Positions 18,769 to 24,090 of a DNA stretch of 44,281 bases are shown piece by piece; positions within the stretch are counted from its first letter, which is position 1, and each line of letters starts with the position of its first letter. Source of the stretch: Candidatus Nitrosocaldus sp. (GTDB lineage: Archaea; Thermoproteota; Nitrososphaeria; Nitrososphaerales; Nitrosocaldaceae); the NCBI GenBank assembly GCA_025054855.1, contig JANWZS010000016.1, positions 1 to 44,281 on the forward strand, given 5' to 3'. A program made the translations under genes and the position numbers. The notes under the pieces were generated by a model. That model ran no database searches and had not been told where the DNA came from. It saw only the letters and a program-made list of their open reading frames with translations.

Positions 18769-21573
18769 CTACATGCCTGTGCCATTAAGATGCATCGAGC
18801 GCCTGAGTGATAGCAGTAATGCGAGCGTCAGAGTCACTGCAATGAAGAGCGTTACATACGCCATGGGGAACTCTGGCACGTATGTGAATGTGACCTCTGC
18901 CCTCTCGCCCTCACCGTTTATGTTATCCACTATCATGGTATAGTTGCCCTGAGCACCAAGCACGTAACTCTGTATACCCGTGGCATTCTTCCTTATGGTA
19001 TCAAGCATCTCCCCATCCTTGACCAGGATTAGATCATACTTTGCATCGCTGATGATTCTACCTTCACCATCCATTATGCGTACATCGAACCTCGACTCAC
19101 TGCCTACATCCGATGGATACCAGTCTATAGCGATCCTGTACTTGCCCGTGGTGCTAGAGGCTGTCAACTTGATGCTCCCAATGAACTCCCCTGTACCTAT
19201 TATGCTCGTAGCATACACATCTGGTCTGAGCGCCAGATCGCTTACAGCAAACACCTTCAACTCGTTGGTGCCCCTGGATAACCTGCCCGTATCGTTGCCT
19301 GCAAGCCTTATCTCGAACCTGCCATCGCTGGATGGTCTTATGCTACCGTCTACAACAACGTTACCGTTGGCATCCTTCATGAAGTAGTATATGCTGACAT
19401 CCCTGCTTGGATCTATGCCACTCCCTCCTCCCCCCTCTAACCTTACACTCCCAGTTATCACTGCCTCCTTGCCCCGCTCTATGGTCAGAGGGGCATCAAC
19501 ACTGCTTATCTTGGCGAGCATGGGCTGCTCGAAGACCCTCCAGCGGCCCTGCTCGAATGGGTATGTTGGATCCCTGAAGGCCTTTATCACTATGGTTCGT
19601 GCCTCTGGGTTGTAGCCCTCGAGGTAGAATGGGCCATTGCTTATCATAGCATGCCTCCTGGCATCTATCCAGTCTATGGATGCACTGTACCTAGAGTCAG
19701 CATCACTACTGCTCACCATATCCTTCAGTGCACTTGGTATGGAGTTGGATGATCTGAACTGGTTGAGTGCATCCTTGATGAGATTGGCATCATCAGCGAT
19801 TATAAGAGATAGCCATGGTACGTTCTTTGCATTTGCTTGAGAGCGTGAGAATGCTGCCTTGCCATCCATGACTACCCTCTCCATGGCAGCGTATATCTCC
19901 CAGGGCATGCTAGCCCATACACTAGCATAATCAGCGATATAGTTGGGGTCGAAGTGCCAGTAGTCAACGTAGACCTCTACAGTATCCTCATCCAGGAACC
20001 TTATGCCCTTGAACGTGCTCACAACCTTCTCTGCTGTGGATGTGTACTCTGGATCGTACGTTGCATCGTTCTCACCCTCCCTCGTGCCCCACTCGAAGAG
20101 GAAGTATACACTGTAGAGTATATCACTCCTATCCATCATGACACCATTGTGCCACTTGCTGTACTTGAGGTCGAGTGTGACCTTGCTCTTCGCCTTGATA
20201 CCATCACCAACCTGCCTCCACTGCTCAGCGTATGGGTCCCATACCAAGGCATTGCTTGGGACATCTAGAGCACCATCTGGCCCTCTAGTATCTACCTTCC
20301 ACGTTGCCCTAACAGGTATGACATCCCCCGTATGGGGGTTGAAGAATGTTGCTGGGTCTATTATCGCACTGGATACCCTGGTTGCGTACCAGTCTCTCAG
20401 CCCTGCCACGGGGTTCCATGAGCCCTGGTAGATCTGCTTCATCCCAACCTTCAGTACACCAGTATCTGTCTTTGCGTTTATGAGGCTGAACCTCCCTGTT
20501 ATACCTGCACCAAAGTCCTGGATCATACCATCTACACCCTTACGTACTACGTAGGGGTCTATGGTACTTGCTATGAATATCCTCACAGACTCTCTAACAC
20601 CTATATCTACACTCCTCCTCAGCAGTGAGTCCCTCTCATCCTTGGATGCGTACTTGCCAGTGAATATCCTCTGCGTGAGATCATCCAGCTCCTTATTCTC
20701 ATAGTTCCAGAATGCGTTATTCTGGAACCCAGGCATATTCGCAAACCATGGTGCATACATCTGTGCTGCAAGTGATGTATCATACCTTGTGAATGCAGAT
20801 CTGCCCCAGCCCTCAGTGTACAGATGCCATCTCTGCTCTCTAGGATCTGAGCCATAAACCTCGCTGAATGCCTTGTTCAGATCTCCGTATATCCTCTCTA
20901 CCGTGAAGCCCATCTTCTCAAGGTCCGATGCCAGTATCTCTCCCAGAGTCTTCCTCCTTGGATCATCTCCCCTTATGAAGAACTTGACCTGTATGGGCTT
21001 ATCGTTGTAGTACCACTTGCCATCAGCCCTCTTCGATGCACCAGCATCTGTGAGCGCCTCACTCACCATATCACTGGCTAGGGCTGGGTTGTACCTGAAC
21101 CCGAACGACTCTATGACATCTATGAGCACTATGTAGTCTGGGTCGAACTGGCCGAATGCGGAGTACATTGGTGCACCGAACCCCTTGAGTACCTCGTTCA
21201 CCACAAGATCCCTATCTATGAGGTAGTTCATAGCATACCTAACCTCCCTGATGGAGAATGGGTTCAACGTGCCATCTGCTGGTGCTGGGTTTATTAGCAG
21301 GCTCAACGATCCTCCCGGGGTATCGTATATCCTTATGCTGGGATCGTCCTTGAGGCTCTGTGCAAGGTCTAGGGGGAGCCTCCAGAAGTACGTATCCAGG
21401 TTCCCTGCCCTAACCTCATTGGTAGCAACATTCTCATCCAGATAGTGTATGAACCGAACCTCATCCACGTACGAGCCCTTGACCTGCTGTGCATACACAT
21501 GAGATGGCATGGAGAGTAGGAGTAATGCCATCAGTGATGCAGTGATTGCCTTGACATATATGCCCCTCTTCAC
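18769..21573 (-). CDS. Family 5 ABC transporter substrate-binding protein, apparently circularly permuted, membrane anchored
   Basis: Extracellular binding protein of the peptide/nickel (SBP_bac_5) family. From the GTG at 21573, about 30 bp after the TATA element CTCTATAAAG, it is 934 aa with a signal peptide (VKRGIYVKAITASLMALLLLSM, cleavage near VYA-QQ). A longer ATG frame starts at 21618. After the signal comes the half that is normally C-terminal (YVDEVRFIHYLDE...GNLDTYFWRLP, VRYAMNYLIDRDLVVNEVLKGFGAPM), then the half that is normally N-terminal (FFNPHTGDVIPVRATW, VTLDLKYSKWHNGVMMDRSDILYSVYF, NGPFYLEGYNPEARTIVIK). Ig-like segments and a C-terminal helix (MAYVTLFIAVTLTLALLLSL) complete it. 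No permease or ATPase is adjacent. Confidence 0.85.
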   Translation of the reverse strand: MKRGIYVKAITASLMALLLLSMPSHVYAQQVKGSYVDEVRFIHYLDENVATNEVRAGNLDTYFWRLPLDLAQSLKDDPSIRIYDTPGGSLSLLINPAPADGTLNPFSIREVRYAMNYLIDRDLVVNEVLKGFGAPMYSAFGQFDPDYIVLIDVIESFGFRYNPALASDMVSEALTDAGASKRADGKWYYNDKPIQVKFFIRGDDPRRKTLGEILASDLEKMGFTVERIYGDLNKAFSEVYGSDPREQRWHLYTEGWGRSAFTRYDTSLAAQMYAPWFANMPGFQNNAFWNYENKELDDLTQRIFTGKYASKDERDSLLRRSVDIGVRESVRIFIASTIDPYVVRKGVDGMIQDFGAGITGRFSLINAKTDTGVLKVGMKQIYQGSWNPVAGLRDWYATRVSSAIIDPATFFNPHTGDVIPVRATWKVDTRGPDGALDVPSNALVWDPYAEQWRQVGDGIKAKSKVTLDLKYSKWHNGVMMDRSDILYSVYFLFEWGTREGENDATYDPEYTSTAEKVVSTFKGIRFLDEDTVEVYVDYWHFDPNYIADYASVWASMPWEIYAAMERVVMDGKAAFSRSQANAKNVPWLSLIIADDANLIKDALNQFRSSNSIPSALKDMVSSSDADSRYSASIDWIDARRHAMISNGPFYLEGYNPEARTIVIKAFRDPTYPFEQGRWRVFEQPMLAKISSVDAPLTIERGKEAVITGSVRLEGGGGSGIDPSRDVSIYYFMKDANGNVVVDGSIRPSSDGRFEIRLAGNDTGRLSRGTNELKVFAVSDLALRPDVYATSIIGTGEFIGSIKLTASSTTGKYRIAIDWYPSDVGSESRFDVRIMDGEGRIISDAKYDLILVKDGEMLDTIRKNATGIQSYVLGAQGNYTMIVDNINGEGERAEVTFTYVPEFPMAYVTLFIAVTLTLALLLSLRRSMHLNGTGM

Positions 21574-21639: not shown

Positions 21640-22359
21640 ATGGAGAGGATAGGCAAGTCACTGCTGCTCAGACTCATACCCCACATGGATGGGCTCACCA
21701 GCATAGACGAGCTCTCATCACTTGCTGGGATCAGCAGGATGGTGTGCAGTGCCATGGTCGATGCTCTCATAGAGAATGGTATAGGTAGGATGATGGAGGG
21801 AGGGTATGGTGTGAGGTTCACTGCCAGAGACAGGATATCTGCTGTAACACTAGCCTTGAGACTAGGCTCTGGCATGGATGAGGTGTCGAGGGTACTGGAC
21901 TGGAGGGACTTTGAGATGATTGCTGCAGAGATGCTGGAGGAGAATGGTTACCGTACTATGAGGAACCTCAGGCTCACCTCAGGGAAGGGATCAGGTAAGG
22001 TAGCAGGGTCAGGGATGGGTTCATCCAGATCCAGGGTTGAGATAGATGTGGTTGGTGTGAAGAAGTACGTTGATGGCAAGGGTACCGCACTACTGCTTGA
22101 CTGCAAGCACTGGCAGTACATGAGCCCCTCTGAACTCGCAAGGATATGCGAGAGGCAGACTTACAGGGCAGTGAGATTCATGGATGAGAGAGGGCATGAT
22201 CTTGATGTTGATCATGCAGTGCCAGTTATAGTGGTGTTGAACGATACCCCATCCATGATCGATGGTGTGCCCATAGTTCCCATAGCAAGGCTGAGGGGGT
22301 TCCTGAACGAACTCTACTCCATGGATAACCTGCGTGTTGTAAGGCTAGATGAACGTTGA
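21640..22359 (+). CDS. Winged-helix plus PD-(D/E)XK nuclease-like (Mrr-type) protein
   Basis: The 239 residues start with a helix-turn-helix region (MDGLTSIDELSSLAGISRMVCSAMVDALIENGI). A restriction-endonuclease-like domain follows: WRDFEMIAAEMLEENGYRT, EIDVVGVKKYVDG (catalytic Asp), ALLLDCKHW (D-x-K variant of E-x-K) and RQTYRAVRFMDERG. Gly/Ser-rich residues separate the first helix and the Asp strand. DNA processing is likely, but the partner is unknown and no methyltransferase of a restriction pair is next to it. It is divergent from the solute-binding protein gene, and its 3' end overlaps the DUF2070 gene by 15 bp. Confidence 0.75.
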   Translation: MERIGKSLLLRLIPHMDGLTSIDELSSLAGISRMVCSAMVDALIENGIGRMMEGGYGVRFTARDRISAVTLALRLGSGMDEVSRVLDWRDFEMIAAEMLEENGYRTMRNLRLTSGKGSGKVAGSGMGSSRSRVEIDVVGVKKYVDGKGTALLLDCKHWQYMSPSELARICERQTYRAVRFMDERGHDLDVDHAVPVIVVLNDTPSMIDGVPIVPIARLRGFLNELYSMDNLRVVRLDER

Positions 22360-24090
22360 GATCATCATCGCTATGAATACCAGTACACTTGCAGATATGG
22401 ACATCTTCGTTACACTCATCGCTCTATCCAATGCATGCGAATAGTCCCTGAACTGGTCATCGCCCATGATTCTCACGGTCGCACTGGATACCCTCAACTC
22501 GTACCATGCATGTGATGCAGAGTCTACTGCACTCCTGCTCAGCCCAATAAGCATAGATGTGAGTGTATCTCTACTCGTTACGCTCCCCAAGGGGAAGTAG
22601 CCCATCCTGTTCCTTGCCCTGCCAGATGTGTAGTGAGTATCTGATGTGCACAAGACAGCATGCACTATGCTCGGTGCTAGTTGCTCCCTTATAGCCTGCT
22701 CCACATACATGCTCAGACCCTTCACTGCGTTGTTGGCATCTACCCATGCTATGACCAGACCAGCGTCCATGCCATCTGCACCATCGGGGAGCACAGCTAT
22801 AGCGCTCATGCCCGCAGGGCCCATATCACCACCATCATGCTCTGCCCTCGCTACACCGATCCTGAACCTGTACTGCTTCATACCAGTTAATGCATTTAAA
22901 GTTCTCTTACATGCATCCACCATATCATTGATCTCCTCATCGCTGAGATCATCGCCCATGCAGTTGTGCGTATCTATTATCAGCACGTCTCTGAACCCAT
23001 GCTCTGATGCATGATGCTCCACCTTATCCTTCACACTCCTCGGTATATCATCCATACCTCTTGATGATGATAGCAGGAGTAGTGCTACCCTCCCAAATGC
23101 CATACCAGTGACCCTAGCATCGTTGGTGTTAATGGTTATGGGTTCGGTGCATGTAAAGCCCTCCTCAACCCTGGTTTGGTGGGCAAGCGCATCAAGGAAC
23201 CTCTCGACCTCTCTCCTAGATGGTAGATTGGATGAGTGATCAGATATGCCATGCATCACAGCAGCAGTAGTACTGTACCTCGCATGTATATCGTAGGGGA
23301 GGTTGCTACCACCAACAGGGTAGAATGGTCCAGGGTGCAAGTCTGGAAGTATGATCGTATCATACCTCCATGAGCCTGATGCAGATCGATCCGATTCCCT
23401 CTTGAATGCGATGATCCTCGTGGTTATGGTTGATAGCTCTGCCCTGCTCTCCATCATACTCTCCATAAGCCTTGCATCCCTCTCGGTCCAGGCAAGTAGG
23501 TAGGCCTGGAGTAGTCTGAACGTACTCTCGACACCAGGTCTCCCGCTCCTATCTGCAAGTATGCACCATGCTATAACTATACCCATTATCGCTACGCTCG
23601 ATGCTATCGTTGGGGTATCAAGCATCTGAACAATGCCCTCGTAATGCATAAGCAGGAGTAGCACCGTGAACGGCATTATAGGGGCTATCAGGAGCGATCT
23701 CCTGAGCGATGCACCGAATACGGATGTGAATATGCATGCTCTAAGCCCTACTGCGAATATCATACCCTCTATGATGAGTGTATCATGCGCACCAAGCATG
23801 GAGAGTAGCACGCTGATGATCAGGATTGCGAGCCAAAGCATCGATGCGAACGCATTGGTATGATATACCTTGCTAGGCTTCGCCACTGGACTGTGCCTAA
23901 GGAGAAGGTGGTCTAGCCTGAATAGGAGTAACGCTACTCCAAGGGTCACGGGTATGATCAGAGGGTCTGCATCTACTATGTACGCTATAATACCTATGCA
24001 TGCAAGAGATATGATGAGGGAGGTTCTATACGATGAGGGGTTGATGAGCGTGAGGGAGAACCTCCTGTGTATCCTACTTACAGAATCCAT
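22345..24090 (-). CDS. DUF2070 family membrane protein
   Basis: The 581 residues comprise an N-terminal block of about six to seven transmembrane helices (residues about 20-180), a large soluble domain, and a final helix (MSISASVLVFIAMMISTFI). The soluble part has DUF2070-like signatures: ILPDLHPGPFYPVGGSNLPY, VLLLLSSSRGMDD, IIDTHNCMGDDLSD and CTSDTHYTSGRARNRMGYFPLG. These His/Asp-rich motifs suggest a metal-dependent enzyme, but no activity is known to me. It lies 41 bp after the Sec61beta gene on the same strand. Confidence 0.85.
   Translation of the reverse strand: MDSVSRIHRRFSLTLINPSSYRTSLIISLACIGIIAYIVDADPLIIPVTLGVALLLFRLDHLLLRHSPVAKPSKVYHTNAFASMLWLAILIISVLLSMLGAHDTLIIEGMIFAVGLRACIFTSVFGASLRRSLLIAPIMPFTVLLLLMHYEGIVQMLDTPTIASSVAIMGIVIAWCILADRSGRPGVESTFRLLQAYLLAWTERDARLMESMMESRAELSTITTRIIAFKRESDRSASGSWRYDTIILPDLHPGPFYPVGGSNLPYDIHARYSTTAAVMHGISDHSSNLPSRREVERFLDALAHQTRVEEGFTCTEPITINTNDARVTGMAFGRVALLLLSSSRGMDDIPRSVKDKVEHHASEHGFRDVLIIDTHNCMGDDLSDEEINDMVDACKRTLNALTGMKQYRFRIGVARAEHDGGDMGPAGMSAIAVLPDGADGMDAGLVIAWVDANNAVKGLSMYVEQAIREQLAPSIVHAVLCTSDTHYTSGRARNRMGYFPLGSVTSRDTLTSMLIGLSRSAVDSASHAWYELRVSSATVRIMGDDQFRDYSHALDRAMSVTKMSISASVLVFIAMMISTFI

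Follow-up and report, generated by a model that had tools for sequence, protein, structure and literature searches.

Evidence for natural circular permutation in OppA-type binding proteins of Candidatus Nitrosocaldus and its relatives

The gene at 18769..21573 on the minus strand of the window, the 44,281-nucleotide stretch of Candidatus Nitrosocaldus sp. DNA that was analysed (contig JANWZS010000016.1 of assembly GCA_025054855.1), raises the question of whether the two halves of its product, an SBP_bac_5 (OppA-type) solute-binding protein (SBP), have exchanged places and whether such a protein still serves a transporter. The mechanical open reading frame (ORF) begins at TTG 21618 and encodes 949 aa, and the in-frame GTG at 21573 opens a normal signal peptide, VKRGIYVKAITASLMALLLLSMPSHVYA; the stop lies at 18769. 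In the genome collection, Ca. N. tengchongensis and Ca. N. schleperae come closest among named relatives, with 79-80% identity. The divergently oriented neighbour at 21640-22359 (plus strand) has no Pfam match, and its sequence (EIDVVG...LLLDCK) resembles by eye a restriction-endonuclease-like fold. The next gene, at 22345-24090 (minus strand), encodes a full-length DUF2070 membrane protein and is unrelated to the SBP.

Ordinary SBP_bac_5/OppA proteins have the order A-B, while the window protein consists of a signal peptide, B, A, an Ig-like tail and a C-terminal anchor, all given here in minus-strand coordinates and in residues of the 949-aa frame. Signal peptide and short linker (21472..21573; ending SHVYA, then QQVKGS) were assigned by inspection, and their position directly ahead of segment B is conserved in relatives. 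Segment B (20461..21471; residues 50-386) is the canonically C-terminal part, corresponding to Pfam SBP_bac_5 position 146 to the end and to chain residues 317-722 of TkOppA, the OppA of Thermococcus kodakarensis (PDB 7fi3), in the Pfam and 7fi3 alignments. Segment A (19543..20460; residues 387-692), with the last residues NGPFYLEGYNPEARTIVIKAFRDPTYPFEQGR, is the canonically N-terminal part and was aligned to TkOppA chain 17-309. The new joint, at which the old C-terminus is fused to the old N-terminus (GRFSLINAKTDT / GVLKVGMKQIYQGSWNP), was located at 20455..20466 by profile alignment to 7fi3.

The Pfam profile SBP_bac_5 (PF00496) matched the window protein with positions 146-350 only, at residues 49-275 right after the signal peptide (E 3.4e-26). 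The score of 92.7 bits against a curated cut-off of 32.4 places the protein in SBP_bac_5 (cluster C); a single collinear match over the full profile, from 1 to 368 in one stretch as in the canonical order, does not exist for it. When searched against the PDB with phmmer, the protein matched TkOppA in swapped order, namely, query 395-689 on chain 17-312 with 94 bits and query 118-308 on chain 402-601 with 86 bits. A profile of 37 homologues matched the same chain more strongly, with chain 17-309 on profile 383-675 (181 bits), chain 317-590 on profile 33-283 (174 bits) and chain 662-722 on profile 310-370. Apart from chain 591-661, almost all of 7fi3 was covered; the cut site corresponds to a gap of seven residues in the chain, and the old ends are joined directly. 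Swapped ranges, a short gap at the cut and nearly complete coverage are together the signature of a circular permutation. The cut lies at Pfam position about 145, in the lobe-I loop that leads from strand 'NGPFYLEGY...IVIKAF' to strand 'YVDEVRFIHY'. With alignments far above chance level, the two halves are evidently genuine homologues in exchanged positions. This bears out the circular permutation of SBP_bac_5 that had been proposed for this DNA by a sequence-only reading, while the term 'lobe-level' used there is only approximate, as the moved unit is bounded by a segment boundary inside lobe I.

The swapped pair of Pfam matches that the same reading had suggested looking for with HMMER was found in relatives. 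These form a second set that is nearer to the Pfam consensus than the window family, and PF00496 matches them twice, in swapped order, within one ORF. In a relative of 716 aa, profile 146-362 (129.6 bits) is followed by profile 4-146 (98.7 bits).

The window genome is an assembly of 42 contigs, so that the swapped order might be thought to stem from misassembly or from an annotation joining two neighbouring genes. The frame has, however, no interruption and encodes a single signal peptide and a single anchor, and the same order is present in independent assemblies of the genus as well as in over 100 further genomes and other phyla. Among the genomes of the genus that were examined, the permuted protein is collinear, including the single-contig genome G001, and G003 has it as two contig fragments. 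Misassembly and gene fusion were rejected because the order is conserved across many independent genomes, and we give an artefact practically no chance. The rearrangement is to all appearances a clean circular permutation.

An AlphaFold2 model of the window protein, computed with 22 sequences, reached a mean pLDDT of 76 (moderate confidence). With this model, Foldseek, which is bound to sequence order, returned 7fi3 first, but aligned only 317 columns with a TM-score of 0.38 on the target. The next matches were other OppA/NikA/DppA-class proteins, for which the sequential alignment covers one part only. The 317-column match agrees with the predicted permuted fold but is no proof of it. The fold of the window protein should match that of OppA.

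The permuted order is widespread. A profile of permuted members had a match in 110 of the 124 good genomes of the class, a survey of thaumarchaeal homologues in which nearly always one full-length copy was found. Within the phylum Thermoproteota, any match to the profile was present in 148 out of 223 genomes across its families, and those listed are nearly all end to end. About ten records of Spirochaetota, including Rectinema subterraneum, have the permuted order as well, while a search of a plasmid collection for relatives returned none. The sequence-only reading had considered the order as possibly lineage-wide in archaeal anchored SBPs. This was right and even too modest concerning its spread, which covers a phylum and reaches the Spirochaetota; still, the order is not a property of all such proteins, as canonical and permuted SBPs coexist within the same genomes.

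A profile of 484 positions, built from 16 Thermoproteota SBPs with the canonical order, was joined to itself and searched against all ORFs. Ordinary-order proteins aligned from about 1 to 483. Proteins of group I followed one continuous path that starts at position 182, wraps and ends at 182 again (194 bits for L203, over residues 52-580). For the window family, a doubled profile of its own gave the same wrapping, with start and end near the A/B joint. A partial and non-random census, comprising all PF00496 matches of 29 genomes and further relatives, counted 60 distinct ORFs in canonical order and 52 that have their cut at the A|B loop; two were cut near position 400 and one between about 212 and 249. 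The SBP_bac_5 proteins L285:4398-6752 and L286:7713-9719 are rotated at another site, after GW.PDYLDPDNY, and contain a C-terminal segment, then A and then the remaining B. Compared with L206 (G239), likewise of group III and with its cut at the A|B loop, L285 (G228) is 55-58% identical and mutually rotated, residues 130-533 corresponding to 336-733 and 543-784 to 79-320. The third cut site has a single example, L280:653-2662, with a signal peptide, a CARDB-like domain (by eye), B from 'FADKRVREAF', A and the initial portion of B up to LGFNFNY. Besides the A|B loop, there are, by these alignments, evidently at least two further cut sites.

These rotations also bear on the idea that segment A was recruited from a different, merely analogous gene, which would make the protein a fusion, a caveat that was raised for the permuted binding protein Tp0684 (PMC4990184). 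Segment A of the window protein is indeed unrecognised by Pfam alone. It nevertheless matches, together with B, adjacent ranges of one TkOppA chain at the 181 and 174 bits given above, group I forms one wrapped alignment on the doubled canonical profile, and L285 and L206 are rotations of each other. Recruitment is thus very improbable, and circular permutation remains the preferred reading.

The history of the permutation was followed in trees for which the permuted proteins were first rotated into canonical order. The SBP tree comprised 26 permuted rows, four canonical-order family members and four outgroup rows; TkOppA is partial in it and represented by the residues aligned to the family profile only. 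L215 and L270 (f45), which have canonical order, were placed inside the permuted clade with full support and TkOppA in the same subclade, while canonical L255 of G390 was found near the base on a long branch. A topology forcing all permuted rows together was rejected with a delta lnL of 110 and p-AU of 2.7e-86, this group having been tested after the tree was seen. The tree of OppB and OppC is immune to the rotation of the SBP, and f45 operons were nested among permuted ones there as well. Groups I and II form one permease clade in this tree, and the group III operon (L206) lies in the other, canonical clade. Given the position of canonical f45 members, and probably also of Thermococcus OppA, inside the permuted clade, a reversal is indicated. 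The simplest reading of the trees would be that groups I and II go back to one ancient permutation, which was later reversed at least once, and that group III was permuted independently.

We therefore consider it probable that SBP_bac_5 proteins of the Thermoproteota are a hot spot of recurrent and reversible permutation. One ancient event, associated with a permease with long OppC, would have led to the archaeal OppA clade that includes the window protein. Canonical f45, perhaps also Thermococcus OppA and G390, would then be due to reversal, and a separate permease lineage would have undergone its own permutation at the same loop and a second one at a different loop (L206/L242 versus L285/L286), with a further cut in L280. 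In spirochaete genomes (L048, L049, L050, L051 and L056), a permuted SBP is accompanied by OppB, OppC and two ATPases and is nested in the archaeal clade, suggesting that the whole operon may have passed from archaea to spirochaetes.

Across the two orders, L215 shares 32-36% identity with L220 and L250. In group I, the C-terminal tail is similar to that of a canonical protein, L203 581-679 aligning with L202 537-636 at 34% identity. The core was thus rotated, while signal peptide and tail remained unmoved, and a tail domain that is still C-terminal suggests internal duplication and loss rather than fusion of whole genes. The A-B core would have been duplicated internally, after which the first A and the last B would have been lost. 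The termini of OppA are close together in lobe I; they would have been joined by a short linker, so that the core would now begin and end at the lobe-I loop. Intermediates in the form of tandem duplicates (A-B-A, B-A-B, A-B-A-B) were sought among the ORFs of the fetched relatives, and none was found.

Concerning its role, the spirochaetes and most relatives whose flanking sequence is long enough have the permuted SBP gene beside OppB and OppC, usually along with two ATPases of the OppD/F type. It is usually the first gene of an OppB-OppC-OppD-OppF operon in relatives. One such operon was annotated with Pfam and contains BPD_transp_1 permeases as well as ATPases with ABC_tran and oligo_HPY; in L160, the frames of SBP and OppB abut (the stop-to-stop frames overlap). 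From this operon context, the permuted SBP is probably the functioning binding component of an ABC importer for oligopeptides. The window genome itself contains exactly one PF00496 protein, the window SBP, one OppB/OppC pair on C22 and one OppD/OppF pair on C2, both unlinked to the SBP gene. Its permease belongs to the same clade as the operon-encoded ones in the OppB+OppC tree.

This separation of SBP gene and permease, which holds for the Nitrosocaldus and Nitrosopumilus-like genomes examined, could also be taken to mean that the protein is real but no longer part of a transporter, e.g. a sensor or surface adhesin, and its anchor and Ig-like tail would suit such a function. It is an improbable explanation, since in almost all other cases the permuted SBP gene comes first in an oppBCDF operon and since the single PF00496 protein, OppBC pair and OppDF pair of the genome are related to those operons. 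Peptide capture for the cell's Opp importer is the most likely role of the window protein by this analogy. The peptide as ligand is deduced from TkOppA, the structure of which was solved with a pentapeptide according to the title of 7fi3. The permuted SBP, held at the cell surface by its C-terminal membrane anchor, would bind small peptides, dock to the unlinked permease and deliver them to the cell's sole OppB/OppC with OppD/OppF ATPases. Taken together, the window gene very probably encodes a naturally circularly permuted cluster-C SBP of the OppA type that is surface-held by its anchor and would feed peptides to this single importer.

The OppC proteins of the permease lineage with permuted SBPs (L107-L126, L158-L171) measure 450-640 aa from stop to stop, compared to 266-307 aa for those of ordinary operons; in the members checked, the additional part precedes the BPD_transp_1 domain. 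A rule by which a permuted SBP goes with a long OppC was weakened by canonical-order L215/L270 and L269, which are also long (439-506 aa), and by permuted L206, which is shorter (357 aa). OppC length thus tracks the permease lineage and not the order of the SBP.

The Ig-like segments and membrane anchor described by the sequence-only reading are present. The Ig-like tail domain (19198..19542; residues 693-807) is kept in most permuted homologues up to about residue 807. According to comparison with homologues and within the own genome, the second Ig-like segment (18880..19197; residues 808-913) is genus-specific with a similar stretch at five other places. The sequence ends with VPEFP, a transmembrane segment (TM) and RR (18772..18879), which may be an archaeosortase signal. 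No match was obtained with the NCBIfam CTERM models, although this end is visible in the window protein. The last about 130 residues (18772-19197), comprising Ig-like stretch and VPEFP-TM-RR, recur at the five places mentioned (C11, C4 and C41), and C41 carries an exosortase-family gene (PF09721), which hints at anchoring by a system of the archaeosortase type.

Most permuted proteins end in a TM, with or without a Ser/Thr linker, and the permutation might therefore be regarded as an adaptation to C-terminal membrane tethering, as the authors of the work on cluster-B Tp0684 wondered for their protein (PMC4990184). However, the canonical-order L215 ends in a comparable Thr-rich linker and TM, and many permuted members of the Nitrososphaera type and from spirochaetes end without TM. 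Tethering is thus an unlikely reason.

A whole lineage of archaeal transporters, among them those of almost all ammonia-oxidising archaea (AOA) sampled, would use a permuted SBP, and standard annotation shows such a protein as a partial match to SBP_bac_5. Domain-coverage filters and order-dependent structure searches under-call such importers, which bears on claims of organic-nitrogen use by AOA. The pairs of opposite order provide a natural experiment on the origin and the reversal of a permutation and on a possible influence of the order on docking to OppBC. To our knowledge, circular permutation is rare in evolution and only isolated cases, such as Tp0684, exist among ABC binding proteins. 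No report on circularly permuted cluster C or Opp-type SBPs was found in the open-access literature searched. A permuted ABC binding protein as such is already known from Tp0684; the recurrent and reversible pattern is the part that would surprise specialists.

Among known systems, pentapeptide-bound TkOppA is the closest solved homologue of both window halves. It is oligopeptide-binding and of the same family on the tree, but has the order A-B, while the window protein has B-A with an additional Ig-like tail and VPEFP anchor. With OppA, DppA and NikA (PF00496, cluster C) it shares a segment B above the Pfam cut-off, structural matches of the same class and the OppBCDF context in relatives; it differs in the swap at Pfam position about 145 and the resulting lack of a collinear full-length match. 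Tp0684 (TpMglB-2) of Treponema is likewise an ABC binding protein with natural circular permutation, a glucose-binding lipoprotein with functional ligand binding according to crystal structure and binding assays, for which 'cluster Bc' was proposed (PMC4990184). Its permuted part is only 13% identical to EcMglB (PMC4990184), and it has the cluster B sugar-binding fold and another cut point. The window protein does not belong to cluster Bc with its MglB-like fold, as the listed structural and sequence matches are of cluster C, and its family is archaea-wide, has several cut sites and shows strong sequence homology in each half.
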